Positions 5,717-26,198 of a DNA stretch of 34,963 bases are shown here, one piece after another. Below the pieces are notes generated by a model. That model searched no databases. It was not told the origin of the DNA and worked only from the letters and a program-made list of their open reading frames with translations. Position numbers and translations under genes: made by a program. This DNA comes from a bacterium (GTDB taxonomy: Bacteria > Patescibacteriota > Minisyncoccia > Moranbacterales > UBA2206), in assembly GCA_021777675.1 (NCBI GenBank), contig JAJYDG010000008.1, forward strand, positions 1 through 34,963. The letters run 5' to 3'. Numbering within the stretch: the first letter of the stretch is position 1; each line of letters begins with the position of its first letter.

Positions 5717-6973
5717 TCAATCTTTTCGCAATGCCTCCATTGGACTGAGTTTGGATGCGGCGCGCGCCGGATAATAACCAAAAATTATGCCCGTCAAAAA
5801 AGAAAAACCTACCGCTAAAAATATAGCATTGGCGCTAACGGATAAATTTATCGAATAACCGAAAGAATTAGAAAAATAAGACAACGCTAAAAGCAATAAA
5901 TATCCCAACATGATTCCAATTATTCCGCCAAAAAAAGTAATAAAAATTGCCTCCCACAAAAATTGACGCAAAATATTTTTTGCTTTGGCGCCTACCGCTT
6001 TGCGCAATCCAATTTCAAAAGTACGCTCCGCCACTGCCACATACATTATGTTCATAATTCCAACCCCCCCAACTAGAAGCGAGATGGAAGTCAGCGCCAA
6101 AAGCAAAATATTGATTGTATTGAACACGCTATTTATTGTATTTTGCGCATCCTTAATCGACATAACACCGAAATCGTCTTTATTGGGATCGGTTATTTTG
6201 TGTAATTTTCTCATTTCGAAAATAATATTGGCAGTTGTTTCATCAATAGCATTTTGATCACTTACTCGCAACCCAATCATTCGAACATAATTTATGCCTA
6301 AAATCTTTTTTTGCAATGTTCTCACCGGAACATAAATAATTTCGTCAAAATTAAAAAATCCCACCGTTCCTCTTTTCGCCAGCACACCGATTACTCGGTA
6401 TTTTTGGTCTTTTATTTTAATCTCTTTGCCAATTGGATCGACTCCGCCAAAAAAAGCGTCGTTAATATCCGAACCGATTACAGCCACCTGAGCTAAACCG
6501 CGGTCATCCGCTTCGGAATAAAAAGAACCTTCTTTTAAGCCAAAATTAGCATCCACTGTCGGCAGTTGCGCTCCGGCGCCAAAAAGCATAACTTGTTTGT
6601 TAAAATTTTGGTAACTAACTAATTCTTGGTCAATTGAAGCCGCATAATAACTTTTAATATTTGGTAATTTTCCTAATGCGTCCGCATCAGAAAGAGTGAG
6701 AGTGGTAATTTGAATTCCCGTTGCCTGCCCGACGGCATTGGAAGTTGATGTTTGCTTTGTAGCGGGGACTTTAACTTCCACTTGAATTAAATCTGTGCCA
6801 AAACTGTTTACTTGCTTTAAGATATATTCTTTCACTCCTTGCCCTAATGCGCTTACTAAAATAACCGCCAATACACCAATAACCACACCGATTAATGTCA
6901 AAACTGTTCGCCCCAAATTGGCGCGCAGATTATTAATTGCTAATTTAATTGAAATAATTAACTCTGTTAACAT
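5717..6973 (-). CDS. ABC transporter permease, MacB/FtsX type (second permease)
   Basis: Membrane subunit of a MacB-like exporter. The layout is typical: an N-terminal transmembrane helix (about residues 22-46), a large extracytoplasmic MacB core domain (about 47-275), then three helices with the FtsX signature VGGVGIMNIM and GLRKAVGAKAKNI. The C-terminal end Y-P-A-R-A-A-S-K-L-S-P-M-E-A-L-R is characteristic. The length of 418 is normal. It is a paralogue of the permease directly upstream (13 nt between them), so the transporter is probably a heterodimer with the ATPase at 8233-8964. The substrate is unknown; in MacB systems peptides, toxins or lipids are moved. Confidence 0.93.
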   Translation of the reverse strand: MLTELIISIKLAINNLRANLGRTVLTLIGVVIGVLAVILVSALGQGVKEYILKQVNSFGTDLIQVEVKVPATKQTSTSNAVGQATGIQITTLTLSDADALGKLPNIKSYYAASIDQELVSYQNFNKQVMLFGAGAQLPTVDANFGLKEGSFYSEADDRGLAQVAVIGSDINDAFFGGVDPIGKEIKIKDQKYRVIGVLAKRGTVGFFNFDEIIYVPVRTLQKKILGINYVRMIGLRVSDQNAIDETTANIIFEMRKLHKITDPNKDDFGVMSIKDAQNTINSVFNTINILLLALTSISLLVGGVGIMNIMYVAVAERTFEIGLRKAVGAKAKNILRQFLWEAIFITFFGGIIGIMLGYLLLLALSYFSNSFGYSINLSVSANAIFLAVGFSFLTGIIFGYYPARAASKLSPMEALRKD

Positions 6974-8232: not shown

Positions 8233-8964
8233 TTATTTCAAAAGCTCGTCTTCACTTTCGGCTATCTTCCTATCCCTAACTAAATCATCAGCAATAATTG
8301 CCCCGTCTTTCATATATAAAATTCTTTTGGCATGTTGTGCTGTATAAGTTTCATGTGTTACTAAAATTACCGTATGCCCGGCATCATTCAATTTTTGTAA
8401 AATTCTCATTACTTGCAGTCCCGATTTAGAATCCAAATTACCGGTCGGCTCATCAGCAAAAATAACTTCCGGATCATTAACCAATGCTCGCGCAATCGCT
8501 ACTCGCTGTTTTTCTCCGCCGGATAATTGATTGGAAAAATATCCTAAACGATGTTCCATTCCAACAGCATGCAAGGCGGAATTTACCCGTTCTTGATTAT
8601 TTTTCAAATATTTATTGCTATATAAAAGTGGCAATTCGACATTTTCAAAAACAGTTGTGCGAGAAAGTAAATTAAAAGATTGAAAAATGAAGCCGATTTT
8701 TTTATTGCGAATTTCCGCTAACTGATCATCTAAAAATTCAGAAACATCCAGCCCTTCAAAAAAATATCTTCCTTCACTGGCACGATCCAAGAAACCTAAA
8801 ATTTGCATCAATGTCGATTTTCCCGATCCGCTTGGACCCATAATGGAAATAAACTCTCCTTTTTCGACAGAGAAAGAAACACCGCACAACGCTTGAGTCT
8901 CTACTCCGTCATTGGCATATATTTTGCGCAAGTTTTCTACGGTGATTAACATTTGGTTTGACAT
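8233..8964 (-). CDS. ABC transporter ATPase, MacB/LolD type
   Basis: Cytoplasmic ATPase that powers the MacB-type exporter. Walker A GPSGSGKST lies at residues 43-51, the Q-loop at Q95, signature LSGGE at 147-151, Walker B VIFADE at 167-172 followed by PTGNLDSKSG, which is typical of the MacB/LolD/FtsE group. The switch histidine sits in LVTHE. 243 residues, a single domain. ATG at 8964; an internal ATG at residue 5 is an alternative. Its start region overlaps a promoter facing the opposite way (8958-8986). Adaptor and permease neighbours define the system. Confidence 0.95.
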   Translation of the reverse strand: MSNQMLITVENLRKIYANDGVETQALCGVSFSVEKGEFISIMGPSGSGKSTLMQILGFLDRASEGRYFFEGLDVSEFLDDQLAEIRNKKIGFIFQSFNLLSRTTVFENVELPLLYSNKYLKNNQERVNSALHAVGMEHRLGYFSNQLSGGEKQRVAIARALVNDPEVIFADEPTGNLDSKSGLQVMRILQKLNDAGHTVILVTHETYTAQHAKRILYMKDGAIIADDLVRDRKIAESEDELLK

Positions 8965-20637: not shown

Positions 20638-21675
20638 TTATTTTTTTAATTTATTCTTTTCTTCAAAGATAAGACTTAAATTATGCTTTTTTCTATTCTT
20701 CCAATTACCTTTATGATAAGCATAACTTGCAAGTAAAGGCAAAACTGAAGTAGCCTCCGCATACACCATTTGCTCAAAATTAGTTTCAACTTTTCCCCAA
20801 GAGCTAGCTTCTTTCAGCGTTGAGCTGGAACAAGCACCATCACGAACATCTGCCACAGTTATTTGAATAGCATATTTATGCATTGGCACATTTTTTCCTA
20901 ATATTTCAGCACAAACAACAGTATCTTGAACAAAATTTTTAGGCGCTCCTCCACCAATCATCAAGAGTCCGCTTGTTTTTGCTTGCATTTTAATTTTAGT
21001 TAACTCCCGAAAATCTTTCACAGAATCAATGGACATATGCTCATCCGGATTATTTACCTGATGCACAACTAGACCAAATCCTGCACTGCTATCAGAAAAA
21101 GCCGGACAAAAAATGGGAACATTATGTTCATAGGCAACTTGGACCAGTGAATCTTTCTTTTTTGCGTGTTTTGTCAGATATTTTCCCATTTCTTGAATGA
21201 ATTCCCTTGATGAATATGGTCTATGCTCCAATTGATCGGCAATTTTTCGAATAGCAATGTCACAAACTTGCAATTCTTCTTCGTCAATGAAAGTATCATA
21301 AATTCTATCAACATACACCGATCTAAGATTTTTATCATCCACAAAAGGTGTCCCCTTGTAATGACTGAAACCAAGAGCTTCAAAAAAATCCATATCAACA
21401 ATACTAGCACCTGTTGCCACAATTGCATCAATCATATTGTTTTTAACCATATCCACATATATTTGCATACATCCTGCAGCACTGGTGCTTCCGGCTAAAG
21501 TTAAAATATTCACACAATCTTTTTCTTTGAGCATAAGATTAAAAATTTCACTTGCCCTTCCAAGATCACGAGCAGTAAAAGACATCTTTTTCATTGCTTC
21601 AATAATATCCACTGAATTAATCTTTTTGATATCTATATGCTTAATTTTCTCTTTTAGTAAATCCGTTTTTTTCAT
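20638..21675 (-). CDS. Deoxyhypusine-synthase-like protein
   Basis: Known members move a 4-aminobutyl group from spermidine, using NAD, to eIF5A lysine (eukaryotes, archaea) or to an amine, forming homospermidine or spermidine (bacterial and plant relatives). Visible are ATGASIVDMDFFEALGF and HYKGTP with RIYDTFIDEE (NAD/substrate region), FSDSSAGFG, and the active-site lysine block S-S-W-G-K (K295) followed by VYAEATSVLPLL. 345 residues, full length. Bacteria have no eIF5A/hypusine system, so a polyamine-forming role is more likely. It lies 54 nt after speD, which makes the aminopropyl donor. Confidence 0.93.
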   Translation of the reverse strand: MKKTDLLKEKIKHIDIKKINSVDIIEAMKKMSFTARDLGRASEIFNLMLKEKDCVNILTLAGSTSAAGCMQIYVDMVKNNMIDAIVATGASIVDMDFFEALGFSHYKGTPFVDDKNLRSVYVDRIYDTFIDEEELQVCDIAIRKIADQLEHRPYSSREFIQEMGKYLTKHAKKKDSLVQVAYEHNVPIFCPAFSDSSAGFGLVVHQVNNPDEHMSIDSVKDFRELTKIKMQAKTSGLLMIGGGAPKNFVQDTVVCAEILGKNVPMHKYAIQITVADVRDGACSSSTLKEASSWGKVETNFEQMVYAEATSVLPLLASYAYHKGNWKNRKKHNLSLIFEEKNKLKK

Positions 21676-21729
21676 ATTATTTTGCTTATTTAATAAATAA
21701 AAATCTCGTTTTTAGATAATATTTTTTCA

Positions 21730-22131
21730 CTAAGGAACATTATCTACGGGATATCGCGTGCCTCTTCTAACAAAATTAGTTTCAGTATCTTTTAGACCGA
21801 ATATTTTCACAAAGTAATCTTCCACAAATTTGATATTCATTCCATTTTTACATGTATAAGCATCAATGCTCACAAATCTTCTTTTGGGAAAAGTATGAAT
21901 ACTGATATGACTTTCTGCAATCACCACAAATCCACTCCAACCTCCCGGATCTTTAATGTCATTTGATTTAGCAAAATAAATTTTCGGTTCGGACAATTTA
22001 CGCATTCCCAAGAGTACAGGAAGCTCATTAAGACATTTCAAAACCAATTTTTTGTTATTTAGCTTTTCGCAATTTCCTTGATATCCATCAAGCATAAAAT
22101 GCTCACCAAAATTACAAATAATTTTTTTCAT
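21730..22131 (-). CDS. speD: S-adenosylmethionine decarboxylase proenzyme
   Basis: Decarboxylates S-adenosylmethionine to give the aminopropyl donor for spermidine synthesis. The self-cleavage site is I-A-E-S-H-I-S: S74 becomes the pyruvoyl group and H75 follows. C94 in DAYTCKNG is the catalytic cysteine. F-G-E-H-F and the G-x-S-G block before the cleavage site are typical of the small bacterial/archaeal SpeD (133 residues). No speE (spermidine synthase) is in the window; instead a deoxyhypusine-synthase-like gene follows. Its own promoter and a duplicated noncoding element lie upstream. Confidence 0.95.
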   Translation of the reverse strand: MKKIICNFGEHFMLDGYQGNCEKLNNKKLVLKCLNELPVLLGMRKLSEPKIYFAKSNDIKDPGGWSGFVVIAESHISIHTFPKRRFVSIDAYTCKNGMNIKFVEDYFVKIFGLKDTETNFVRRGTRYPVDNVP

Positions 22132-22173: not shown

Positions 22174-22202
22174 AGCTTAGCACAAAACAAATAGAATATC
22201 AA
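22174..22202 (-). promoter_or_regulatory. Extended -10 promoter upstream of speD
   Basis: Minus strand TTGATA (22202-22197), 17 nt, TAAGCT (22179-22174) with TGC directly before it (TGCTAAGCT). It lies between the terminator of the noncoding element and the speD ATG at 22131. Confidence 0.6.
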
Positions 22203-22229: not shown

Positions 22230-22392
22230 AAAAAAAACGCCCGAATGGACGCTTTAAACAATATTCAATTTGAAACTAAATTCAAATGATAACTATTCAT
22301 CAGCATAGTTGACAGCCCAAAAAATATCTGACCTGGTTTTTTCCTAAATATTTGCATACAGTTTTTTCAACTTCCTTTTTCTATTTTTCTAT
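22230..22392 (-). ncRNA. Putative small RNA, element copy A (upstream of speD)
   Basis: Minus strand, start predicted near 22392 from the promoter, end at a terminator. The terminator stem (22255-22247 with 22242-22234) has 9 pairs, a 4-nt loop and then about eight T. A hairpin with arms AACTAT and ATAGTT (22310-22291) and loop GCTGATGA lies upstream, and between them ATTTGAA/TTCAAAT can form another stem. The last ~125 nt resemble copy B at 25207-25330. The gap 22132-22568 holds nothing else I can call, apart from two promoters. It may be a free small RNA, because speD has a further promoter downstream. Confidence 0.6.
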
Positions 22393-22398
22393 GATTGT

Positions 22399-22427
22399 AT
22401 TGTAGCGAGAAAATTAAAAAAAATCAA
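22399..22427 (-). promoter_or_regulatory. Promoter of element copy A
   Basis: Minus strand TTGATT (22427-22422), 17 nt, TACAAT (22404-22399). A second TACAAT overlaps at 22399-22394. It is well placed to start the putative small RNA. Confidence 0.65.
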
Positions 22428-22568
22428 GCCAATGTATGAGTCCACCCAACTTTGCACTCTATGGATAAATTAAAATTATTAATTTGCAATAACATTATGA
22501 ACTGTTTTTCAGAAAGTTCTCCAAAGGTTCAACCTTCAAATACTTTCGGATAAAATATGCCAGTAAGC

Positions 22569-23441
22569 TTATACGGCCAGTTCAACAAAGAATTGTGGGT
22601 AATATTTTTTTAAGATTTCTTTTGCTTTCAGGGCTTCTTTTTTTGTTTTAAAGATTCCAAAAACTGTTGGACCCTTTCCGCTAATCGAAGCGCCCATTGC
22701 ACCAAAAGCTATTAGCGCTTTTTCTAATATTTCCAAATTGGAATATTTCTTTTTCGCCACGACTGAAAAATCATTATAAAGACAACCGCTGAATTTTTCC
22801 AAATTAGAAATATTATTTATAAACTCTCTGGTTATATTTTTTCTTTTAGTCTCATGCATAAAAAACAAATACTGATCCAATTCACCATAAGCCCAAGGAG
22901 TAGGAATTTCTCCCGCAGGATTGATTATTAAAACATTAAACTTGAAAGAATTTTTAATTGGCTTTATTTTTTCACCCATTCCGGAAATGCTGGCAAGTTT
23001 TGACTGAGAAATAAAAAAAGGAATATCTTTTCCTACCTCACTGACAATCTTGATTAATTTTTTTTCAGACAGGCTATTCTTAAAATATTCATTCAATGCC
23101 AAAGCTACTACTGCGCCATTCGAACTTCCCCCGCCCATACCCGAAGCCAATGGAATATTTTTTTTAATTTTTATCTTAAGTCCTACGTGCCTGCCTGTTT
23201 TTTTAAAAAATTGTTCTGCAATTTTCCAACAAATATTTTTTTGATTCAACGGCACATTCGGATTATTGCAGACTATTTCTATTCCGGCGCAACTTTCGTC
23301 AAAAAATAATTCAATTTCATCAAAAATATTTTCCGTTTTCAACATCACTGTACGAATTTCATGAAAACCATTGGGCATTTTTTTTACCACTTCTAACACC
23401 AAATTTATTTTAGCTACCGATTTTAATTTAATTTTTTTCAT
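22569..23441 (-). CDS. ispE: 4-(cytidine 5'-diphospho)-2-C-methyl-D-erythritol kinase
   Basis: GHMP-family kinase of the MEP isoprenoid pathway; it phosphorylates CDP-methylerythritol. The family signs are KINLVLEVVKKMPNGFHEI near the start, the ATP loop PLASGMGGGSSNGA (residues 97-110), and a C-terminal GASISGKGPTVFGIF. 290 residues, full length. It overlaps the end of ispF by 14 nt and follows ispD-ispF, so three consecutive MEP steps are in one unit. The product goes back to IspF, whose gene is directly upstream. Confidence 0.96.
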   Translation of the reverse strand: MKKIKLKSVAKINLVLEVVKKMPNGFHEIRTVMLKTENIFDEIELFFDESCAGIEIVCNNPNVPLNQKNICWKIAEQFFKKTGRHVGLKIKIKKNIPLASGMGGGSSNGAVVALALNEYFKNSLSEKKLIKIVSEVGKDIPFFISQSKLASISGMGEKIKPIKNSFKFNVLIINPAGEIPTPWAYGELDQYLFFMHETKRKNITREFINNISNLEKFSGCLYNDFSVVAKKKYSNLEILEKALIAFGAMGASISGKGPTVFGIFKTKKEALKAKEILKKYYPQFFVELAV

Positions 23442-23916
23442 CTTTAATCAGGCTGATAATTACAAATACTTGAATCCCCTCACCCCTTCCAAAAGCGGTT
23501 AATTCATCTCCCGATGTGGCATTTATTCCGATATTATTTTTATCCAATTTTAATATTTTCACAAGATTGTCTTTTAATTTATCTTCGAGTGGCAAAATTC
23601 TCGGCTTTTTCGCTTCCATTGATATACCCAAATTATTAATAATATAATTATTTTCTTTTAGGTGCGACAGAGCTATCTTTAAATATTCCGCACTATCAAC
23701 AATACCATTTTTGCACATTTCATCAGCATAAACAGAAAAATTAGTTCTGCCCAGCGCCTGCTCAATAGCAGCACAAATTGCGTGAATAAACACATCCCCA
23801 TCGGAATTCCCTTCGAGACCACTCTCATTTTCAATTTCAACTCCTCCCAATACCAGCTTTCTCGTGGCATCATTTGAAAAACGATGGGAATCTTGTCCGA
23901 ATCCAACTCGAAACAT
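23428..23916 (-). CDS. ispF: 2-C-methyl-D-erythritol 2,4-cyclodiphosphate synthase
   Basis: Forms the cyclic diphosphate of the MEP pathway. The zinc ligands are visible in GQDSHRF (D and H at about residues 8-10) and SDGDVFIHAICAAIEQALG (H at about 45). EAKKPRILP and ATSGDELTAFGRGEGIQVFV are the substrate and C-terminal signatures. 162 residues, the usual size, single domain (not fused to IspD). It starts 4 nt after ispD and overlaps ispE by 14 nt. Confidence 0.96.
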   Translation of the reverse strand: MFRVGFGQDSHRFSNDATRKLVLGGVEIENESGLEGNSDGDVFIHAICAAIEQALGRTNFSVYADEMCKNGIVDSAEYLKIALSHLKENNYIINNLGISMEAKKPRILPLEDKLKDNLVKILKLDKNNIGINATSGDELTAFGRGEGIQVFVIISLIKDEKN

Positions 23917-23920
23917 ACAT

Positions 23921-24622
23921 TTAAATTTTTTTTATAATTATTTTTGCCAACTCCAAGTCAAGCGGTGTTGTAAGTTTGAAATTATTTTTTCCCGCCTCAA
24001 CTATTTTTATTTTTTTACCAATTCTTTCAACCAAACTCACGTCATCTGTTCCTAAAAAATTATCAAGCTTGGCTTTCTCGAAAACTTTTTTGGCCAAAGA
24101 AAATGTAATTGCCTGCGGAGTTTGCATATTCCACAATTTCGCCCTGTCTAAAACACGAATAGACATTCCGTGCGCATCAACTTCTCTAATTGTATCTCTT
24201 GTTCGATGAGCAACGGCACAAGCACCACTTTTTCTTGCTCCCAAACCGCACATATAAATATCATTTTCACTTACAAAAGGATTGGCTCCATTATGAAAAA
24301 ATAAGATTAGATTGCTTTTATCCTTTTCTTTGAAATAGCTATTTACAAATTCAACTCCGGCATAACTGGAATCTTGCCGCTCTTTTCCTCCCGGAATCAC
24401 TCCCAAGATCTTTTTGAATCGATATTTTTTGATAATTTTCTCAAAGACACTTTGTTCTTTTTCTCCCACAATTAAAACTATGCCTCCAATATTCTTAGAA
24501 TTTTCAAATGCTTTAAGAGCATAAAAAATAATCGGCTTTCCCCCAAGCTCAATGAGCGTTTTATTTTTTCCTACCTCCATTCTTTTGCCAATCCCTGAAG
24601 CAAGAATTATTCCGATATTCAT
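23921..24622 (-). CDS. ispD: 2-C-methyl-D-erythritol 4-phosphate cytidylyltransferase
   Basis: Couples CTP with methylerythritol phosphate. The nucleotide-binding signature is LASGIGKRM, followed by KTLIELGGKPIIFYALKAFE. NGANPFVS stands in place of the usual H-D-x-A-R-P-F-V, so the histidine, aspartate and arginine of that motif appear altered. VAHRTRDTIREV and RAKLWNMQTPQAI are well kept, and GTDDVSLVE lies near the end. 233 residues. First gene of ispD-ispF-ispE. Given the altered motif, activity is likely but worth testing. Confidence 0.92.
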   Translation of the reverse strand: MNIGIILASGIGKRMEVGKNKTLIELGGKPIIFYALKAFENSKNIGGIVLIVGEKEQSVFEKIIKKYRFKKILGVIPGGKERQDSSYAGVEFVNSYFKEKDKSNLILFFHNGANPFVSENDIYMCGLGARKSGACAVAHRTRDTIREVDAHGMSIRVLDRAKLWNMQTPQAITFSLAKKVFEKAKLDNFLGTDDVSLVERIGKKIKIVEAGKNNFKLTTPLDLELAKIIIKKI

Positions 24623-24684
24623 AGATTTGTTATTTTATTGAAATATTTTTATATTAGGCATAAAATTACAATTTCTCTTCATTT

Positions 24685-25182
24685 TTACTCATTGCCAGAA
24701 GTCGCATTCAAACACTTAGTATCATCCGGCGCACATACTCCAGCGTCCGATCCGTCAGTCGTCGTTTTATCTACTGGTGGGTTCTCTTTGGTGTATTCCA
24801 TCGGATCACTACATTCCACTTTTTGTTCTGTCTTAGTTTTTTCATCACAAAAAATGTATTGGCAATTCGGTTCATTATCTTCACAAACCAAAGCCTTGCA
24901 ATTTTTATCTGCCGGATTACAAGAAGGAATATGCGACGCGTTTCTTTCGACTAAAATATAATACCAAATGTCTTTTTCTCGATCACCTGTACATTTTTCG
25001 CCATCCACATTTGAAGCCGGGTCACATTTCCAAACAAAACATTTTTGAGTATAAGGATCGCAATCAGTCTGCGCTTTAATAAGATAATTTTTCGCAATCG
25101 CAGTGCGATAAAAAGTAGCAAACACCGATCCAACAATCAACAAACCGAGAGCAATGAAAAATATTTTTGATTTTTTGTCCAT
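24685..25182 (-). CDS. Exported cysteine-rich protein with C-x-P-x4-C repeats
   Basis: 165 residues, family not recognised. An N-terminal transmembrane anchor or uncleaved signal (about residues 5-25, IFFIALGLLIVGSVFATFY) precedes a domain with twelve cysteines. Three motifs share a form: CDPYTQKC, CNPADKNC and CAPDDTKC. Other cysteines come in similar pairs. A disulfide-bonded surface protein is likely, and the thioredoxin-fold proteins of this genome may act on it. Only 24 nt separate the terminator of the noncoding element from its ATG at 25182, so its expression probably depends on read-through. Confidence 0.8.
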   Translation of the reverse strand: MDKKSKIFFIALGLLIVGSVFATFYRTAIAKNYLIKAQTDCDPYTQKCFVWKCDPASNVDGEKCTGDREKDIWYYILVERNASHIPSCNPADKNCKALVCEDNEPNCQYIFCDEKTKTEQKVECSDPMEYTKENPPVDKTTTDGSDAGVCAPDDTKCLNATSGNE

Positions 25183-25206
25183 TTTTTTATTTTAAAATTA
25201 ATTAAC

Positions 25207-25330
25207 AAAAAAACGCACAATGGCGTTTTTAAAAAATTATCAGTTGAAATTATAACTATTCACCAGCATAGCTAGTAACGATTCAAATATTAACCATATT
25301 TTGTTTTGATTTTTTCTAAAAAATCGCATA
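25207..25330 (-). ncRNA. Putative small RNA or leader, element copy B
   Basis: Minus strand, starting directly after the stop of the UDP-glucose-dehydrogenase-like gene. It has a 7-8 bp stem (GATTTTTT with AAAAAATC), then the conserved hairpin at 25273-25254 with arms AGCTAT/ATAGTT and loop GCTGGTGA. The terminator is AAAAACGC (25230-25223) with GCGTTTTT (25216-25209) and T7. Its hairpin matches copy A at 20 of 22 positions, with A-U replaced by G-U in the stem. No separate promoter was found, so it may be an attenuator for the downstream cysteine-rich gene or the 3' end of the upstream mRNA. Confidence 0.58.
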
Positions 25331-25334
25331 TTTA

Positions 25335-26198
25335 TCATTTTTTAATTATATCTTCGCCATACACGCCCTTGAGCAATTCAAAATCTTTTTTACTTTTAAG
25401 CAATAACTCGAGATTCTTTTTTTCAATTGATTTAAAAATTTCATTTCCCAATTTATCATCAAGCATTTTTTCATAATATTGAGTAAATGCCGCATAATCT
25501 TTTATAAAACAATTTCCCGCAGCGCCCCTGCCTCCTTTGTGGACTGGTTGAGTATATGTCGGTCCATTATCAGGATCCATGGCAATTGCCTCTCTGATTT
25601 TTTCCCAATTAGCACCCGCTTTTGTAGCTACATCAAACAATAGGTTATAAAAAATAATTCTTATATAGCCAACGCAATTTCTGGCATATTTAATGAATTC
25701 AGCTTCAGTGGCGGAACAAATCGTATTATAAGGAGCCTTTGCGGAAAAAGACAAAAATTCTTCTGCTCGAGAGCGATATTCAATATTATCCTTGGGAATT
25801 CCTACAATATTTCGCTTTGGATGTGTTGTATCATGATTGGCAGTCGCCTCTGTTAAAAATTCAGGTGAATGCATAACAAAAATATCCGGATTTTCAGCTT
25901 GAATTGAACTTGTCGTTCCCGGTACCACAGTAGACTTGATAATAGCTGTCTTACCCTTTCCTACTAATTTAACCGCCTTTCTCACAATCGAATCATCAAA
26001 TCCATTGGGTGTTGTTGGAGAAGGAACCGCAATCAAAACATAGTCGCAATCTTTGATTTTTTCTTTATTGGCAATATATTGCTCCTCGAGAGAATAACAA
26101 ACCGGCTCAAATCCTCTTGCAGTAAAATCTCGCGCATAGCTTCCTCCCACCCAACCCGTACCGACAATGCCGATTTTTACATTTTTCATTGTATTCAT
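25335..26198 (-). CDS. UDP-glucose/GDP-mannose dehydrogenase-like protein, short form
   Basis: NAD-dependent sugar-nucleotide dehydrogenases oxidise UDP-glucose or relatives to uronic acids. The Rossmann motif GTGWVGGSY (residues 13-21) opens the protein, with IKSTVVPGTT and SPEFLTEATA in the expected order. K170 and N174 (FIKYARN) and the catalytic C230 (G-N-C-F-I-K-D) are present. At 287 residues it lacks the C-terminal nucleotide-sugar domain of the usual ~430-residue enzyme. Its substrate is therefore uncertain. It has its own promoter after the ribosomal operon. An ATG at residue 4 is an alternative start. Confidence 0.88.
   Translation of the reverse strand: MNTMKNVKIGIVGTGWVGGSYARDFTARGFEPVCYSLEEQYIANKEKIKDCDYVLIAVPSPTTPNGFDDSIVRKAVKLVGKGKTAIIKSTVVPGTTSSIQAENPDIFVMHSPEFLTEATANHDTTHPKRNIVGIPKDNIEYRSRAEEFLSFSAKAPYNTICSATEAEFIKYARNCVGYIRIIFYNLLFDVATKAGANWEKIREAIAMDPDNGPTYTQPVHKGGRGAAGNCFIKDYAAFTQYYEKMLDDKLGNEIFKSIEKKNLELLLKSKKDFELLKGVYGEDIIKK

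Follow-up and report, generated by a model that had tools for sequence, protein, structure and literature searches.

Among the described systems closest to the element reported here, SgrS/SgrT is a dual-function small RNA that is also translated, trpL, tnaC and speFL are leader-peptide attenuators, and Ldr and Ibs are multi-copy type I toxin loci. For Patescibacteria, our literature searches turned up hardly anything about small proteins or regulatory RNAs. Here we analysed a 34,963-nt stretch of DNA from a member of this group (contig JAJYDG010000008.1, hereafter the window), which carries two copies, A and B, of a short element with an open reading frame (ORF), a hairpin and a terminator. 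Comparison with relatives establishes a sequence family with a fixed ATG, an open frame, in-phase indels, RNA-type covariation and terminators. On these comparisons, we consider the element to be probably a micropeptide gene that is autonomous, fast-evolving and lineage-restricted and has a structured mRNA.

The two related minus-strand copies lie where a preliminary description of the window had placed them, and are tied together by a gap-free shared block. A genome-wide BLAST search at E values up to 0.001 returned copies A and B and no other place, and a genome search allowing 3 mismatches returned the same two copies plus one weak match only. The features of the window are:

21730-22131, minus strand: speD, S-adenosylmethionine decarboxylase, the gene after copy A
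22174-22202, minus strand: promoter-like stretch P2 (TTGATA, 17 nt, TAAGCT after TGTGC), read by eye
22234-22255, minus strand: intrinsic terminator of copy A
22265-22357, minus strand: short ORF of copy A, 30 codons plus stop, MQIFRKKPGQIFFGLSTMLMNSYHLNLVSN; the ATG position and open frame are common to 15/15 copies
22281-22308 (copy A) and 25244-25271 (copy B), minus strand: gap-free shared block, 28 nt at 89% identity, E = 5e-4 for the whole genome
22297-22315, minus strand: conserved hairpin H1 within the copy A ORF, weak in this copy
22399-22427, minus strand: promoter-like site before copy A (TTGATT, 17 nt, TACAAT), the TGCTACAATA-type box seen before most copies
24685-25182, minus strand: 165-aa gene after copy B, without a Pfam or NCBIfam match
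25209-25230, minus strand: intrinsic terminator of copy B
25240-25329, minus strand: short ORF of copy B, 29 codons plus stop, MRFFRKNQNKIWLIFESLLAMLVNSYNFN
25260-25278, minus strand: conserved hairpin H1 within the copy B ORF, 8 bp, loop UAU, -8.0 kcal/mol
25335-26198, minus strand: UDP-glucose/GDP-mannose dehydrogenase-type gene directly 5' of copy B

In agreement with the preliminary description, an intrinsic terminator is found at the end of each copy, a promoter-like site stands before copy A with its -10 box about 40 nt 5' of the ATG, and a separate promoter-like stretch for speD, P2, sits between the copy A terminator and that gene, where by eye it resembles stretches after five other copies. 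Copy B has no promoter of the type found before most copies, and its ORF begins 5 nt past the stop codon of the dehydrogenase-type gene.

Some further observations concern the surroundings of the copies. A further stretch, AAAGTTGGGTGGACTnATACAT, is shared upstream of the promoter by copy A (window 22405-22450) and the copy of genome G016 (L217). Within 20638-22131 of the window, the gene after speD belongs to the deoxyhypusine synthase family and may encode a polyamine enzyme; judged by ORF size, G016 has the same order. The dehydrogenase-type protein encoded at 25335-26198 is short (287 aa), with the Pfam N-terminal and central domains and without the UDP-binding C-terminal one.

The family was started from a DNA search of the seven genomes of the genus, which belongs to Moranbacteria. 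This gave related stretches in most, each of which, when read along the transcribed strand, contains the short ORF, and a covariance model was built from nine copies of the genus, A and B included. Covariance models found 15 copies in 8 genomes, namely all 7 genus genomes and one from another genus of the family (A and B in G000, one each in G001, G002 and G016, four in G003, and two each in G004, G005 and G006). The preliminary description had proposed such a search, which thus yielded further copies in relatives, with covarying stem pairs and terminators. With the nine-copy model, 14 copies are strong and one, G006b, is weak; we accepted the latter because its ORF start is at the corresponding place and the next gene resembles that after copy B, and because it matches the protein profile at E 3e-7, a profile that had included G006b. 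As further copies outside the training set score 71-118 bits, the shared element is more than chance. An ungapped match of just 28 nt in the window might by itself be taken for a fortuitous likeness of two terminator regions, but this reading has a negligible probability, already refuted as it is by the 15 copies that the models find in 8 genomes.

In a sample of 131 genomes of the order, copies were found in those 8 genomes only, and a sample of 384 genomes of the class gave no convincing copy; the one added match there, G159 (42 bits), was rejected as chance, with its hairpin part unaligned and no ATG at the place. Among 100 stretches from other bacteria with exact matches to a 16-base core, model R2 recovers L063, a stretch of the same genus, and otherwise a single one at E 0.35. 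The same model finds the element on contig JAPLXG010000002.1 (Candidatus Moraniibacteriota), a record of the genus, and a protein profile search returned the 14 copies of the genus and nothing else strong. No Rfam 15 family reaches its gathering threshold, the sole match below it being to 6A RNA (plus strand; 21.8 bits versus 41.2), in keeping with the preliminary description, in which no named RNA family was recognised. Pfam, NCBIfam and PHROGs hold no profile matching the peptide, the best E-values being near 0.09.

The element had been described as noncoding, a description that is not supported and is probably wrong: every copy keeps a short frame open and its phase intact. All 15 copies have an ATG at the same position of the minus strand, followed by an open frame of 26-33 codons with its stop shortly before the terminator. 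All 13 distinct aligned ORFs are open, whereas column shuffles leave 1.24 open on average and not one of 20,000 reaches 13. Furthermore, gaps inside the ORF measure 3, 6 or 12 nt, with one exception of 10 nt right at the end of G002. The GCATA that had been noted at the far end of both window copies is indeed shared, but it is really the start-codon context, TATGC on the other strand. In the two pairs with the least divergence, B/G002 and G003_1/G003_4, which were picked after the full set looked saturated, differences number 3/6/15 at the three codon positions (p = 0.003).

Next to the frame itself, we examined the amino-acid sequence. The conservation test is positive for the closest pairs and for the N-terminal block, and in the part outside the hairpin amino-acid substitutions score above shuffles (z 2.7, 1/400, with a codon alignment made by hand), synonymous change there being mostly at F4 and R5. 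Over all pairs, mean pN/pS is equal across the three frames (0.68, 0.66 and 0.66) and codon-position differences are flat, which indicates that amino-acid conservation is weak or saturated; either the peptide is fast-evolving, or the comparison has reached saturation, or it is the frame alone that counts. Inspection of the regions upstream of the ORFs revealed no clear Shine-Dalgarno site at the usual distance. The ORFs of B and G002 begin 5-6 nt past the stop of the upstream gene, like a normal downstream cistron. Judging from these sequence features, translation of the short ORFs is likely.

The conserved structure is a different one from that first proposed. The hairpin AACTAT-GCTGRTGA-ATAGTT, put forward as the conserved one, is paired in 77% of cells over 14 copies, whereas the conserved helix, H1, has 8 bp and a 3-nt loop, lies inside the ORF (columns 65-72 / 76-83 of alignment A9; TTACTAGC-TAT-GCTGGTGA in copy B) and has 94.6% of its cells paired, 6 of its 8 pairs showing two-sided changes. 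There are 16 cells with two-sided changes versus 7.4 expected, and covariation exceeds that of 500/500 shuffles and of all slid controls, in an alignment that was fitted to a model containing the helix, so that these counts lean in its favour. A plain MAFFT alignment of nine copies gives the same helix, also with two-sided changes. Since G-U cells are common and A-C/C-A cells rare (19 versus 5), H1 would be a structure of the minus-strand RNA, and on the same counts a DNA-level dyad (operator) is disfavoured. No copy folds more weakly than copy A, in which H1 is nearly absent (-0.7 kcal/mol). A hammerhead-like reading of CTGATGA was rejected, the motif being kept neither in copy B nor in most relatives. 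In the codons of the hairpin the nonsynonymous/synonymous ratio rises to about 1, as structural constraint would cause.

These results can be set against the hypothesis of a noncoding small RNA, in which the hairpin and terminator would be functional, the open frame incidental and targets bound by pairing. The strong covariation of the hairpin, the flat overall pN/pS and the presence of a promoter and terminator of its own in most copies are what such an RNA would show. It would leave unaccounted for the fixed ATG, the frame open in all copies, the indels that keep phase on either side of the hairpin and the third-position excess in the closest pairs; moreover, the loop sequence varies among copies and thus offers no obvious pairing seed. 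We regard this hypothesis as unlikely, while giving it more weight than any other alternative.

A second type of small ORF, built on a similar plan (28-35 codons, an internal hairpin and a terminator), was observed downstream in G002, G004, G005 and G003_3, with MRKTRKSLFQINLKYAFSLEKVGLFFSFSNLKLVF as an example of its peptide. The units, with a promoter-like stretch, are:

L194:5349-5502, second small-ORF unit
L192:534-687, second small-ORF unit
L189:5366-5519, second small-ORF unit
L187:8341-8472, second small-ORF unit

In a family search, this second ORF is convincing only inside the genus. Between G002 and G004 it has 3 nonsynonymous and 0 synonymous differences, beside a pS of 0.53 for the adjoining speE, and it may therefore be constrained mainly as RNA, a neighbouring case that speaks for the noncoding alternative to our element. 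The genus-restricted structured micropeptide mRNAs and this second family of the same plan might together form a lineage-specific layer in which ribosomes crossing the hairpin control nearby genes, among them those of polyamine and S-adenosylmethionine-using enzymes, an extension that we consider highly doubtful.

LOOT RNA (RF03000) was also observed above its gathering score, in 2 of the 7 genus genomes:

L192:2921-3038, LOOT RNA match
G002:C6:2457-2577, LOOT RNA match
G004:C4:2469-2589, LOOT RNA match

It is likewise a structured small RNA, and in G004 it shares a contig with one copy of the element, but its structure is unrelated to that of the element and the window has no match to it.

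Next we examined the neighbourhood of the copies, all of which, where placeable, sit between genes of the same orientation. Most copies have a TGCTACAAT-type promoter, with a TGCTACAATA-type box 5' of the ATG; in place of that box, B and G002 start directly past the stop of a UDP-glucose dehydrogenase-type gene. The next gene is speD after A and G016, speE after G002 and G004_1, an unnamed gene after G003_1 and G005_1, and the gene at 24685-25182 or look-alikes (a similarity judged by eye) after B, G003_4 and G006b, and other downstream genes across the family include radical SAM. The functional class of the downstream gene is thus not constant, and a position upstream of speD as a general rule was rejected, since among the speD loci of the family only those of A and G016 have a copy. 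By eye, a TTGACA...TGCTAGGCT-like stretch is found past the terminator in six copies; a strict search for the P2 pattern missed even its source copies and is uninformative on P2 elsewhere.

Under the hypothesis of a cis-acting attenuator, translation of a leader peptide would decide whether the terminator halts transcription ahead of the next gene. The order of a leader-sized ORF, a hairpin and a terminator, with the stop codon close to the terminator stem, fits such a device. For copy B in particular, as the preliminary description had suggested, attenuation is possible, given the 24 nt between its terminator and the next ATG and the apparently same gene that follows G003_4 and G006b. Family-wide, the observations speak against it: the next genes are varied (speD, speE, radical SAM and others) and a promoter-like stretch often intervenes, standing past the terminator in at least six copies. 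In averaged base-pair probabilities, modelled for the RNA free of ribosomes, H1 and the terminator are separate helices and no conserved alternative fold excluding the terminator appears. As the ORF, hairpin and terminator are constant and the promoter and neighbours are not, we prefer the reading as a small gene whose message is structured to that as an attenuator of a given gene, and hold the latter to be quite unlikely.

Signs of gene conversion were observed within two genomes, as G003_2 and G003_3 (L187:4681-4819 and 8561-8697) have identical ORFs and different terminators, and G005_1 and G005_2 (L189:5651-5781 and 6544-6677) have identical 3' halves and different 5' halves. The copies are related and those within a genome apparently partly converted, and so they are not independent of one another.

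If the repeat were mainly a recombination site that shuffles genes between copies, such mosaics would be expected, as would the clustering of copies (four in 14 kb in G003, a pair separated by 0.9 kb in G005 and another by 3 kb in the window), the shared upstream UDP-glucose dehydrogenase-type gene of B and G002 with different genes downstream, and the reverse case of G002 and G004_1, both with speE. Ordinary gene-order change together with gene conversion would give the same picture, we saw no recombinase linked to the copies, and the in-phase indels would be left unexplained; we judge this hypothesis very improbable.

Returning to the micropeptide gene with a structured message, we infer from the comparisons that the element is transcribed and translated and that its peptide and hairpin have roles. 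Each copy would be a small, usually autonomous, translated gene consisting of a promoter, a leader of a few tens of bases, an ATG, 26-33 codons, a stop and, a few nt on, a terminator, so that transcripts would measure some 150-170 nt. In the mRNA, the second half of the ORF would fold into the hairpin of 8 bp and a 3-nt loop. Most likely, translation would give a fast-evolving micropeptide working in trans, and the hairpin would tune how well the message is translated or how stable it is. Copies would have been duplicated and partly converted inside the genus.

Taken together, these results offer a concrete, testable case in Patescibacteria, short, multi-copy and with clear start, stop, promoter and terminator, in which constraint on the reading frame and on RNA structure are displayed together. 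They also advise caution, in that a covarying intergenic hairpin with a terminator can sit within a small gene.

Of the systems introduced at the outset, SgrS/SgrT resembles the element in being a short promoter-to-terminator transcript with a small ORF and conserved RNA structure, whereas the element has no known target or seed, carries its hairpin inside the ORF and shows no relation in Rfam. With the attenuators trpL, tnaC and speFL it has in common a leader-sized ORF followed by a hairpin and terminator, and two copies precede speD and two speE; it differs in its inconstant next gene, in the promoter-like stretch that often lies between, and in that no alternative antiterminator fold was found. 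Like the Ldr and Ibs loci, the copies are repeated intergenic small-ORF units with a promoter and terminator of their own, but no antisense RNA gene was noticed on unsystematic inspection, and several of the peptides, such as MQAFRQNKYQMQIDPELSSAESMSQFCVLN, are, as read from their sequences, plainly not hydrophobic membrane peptides.
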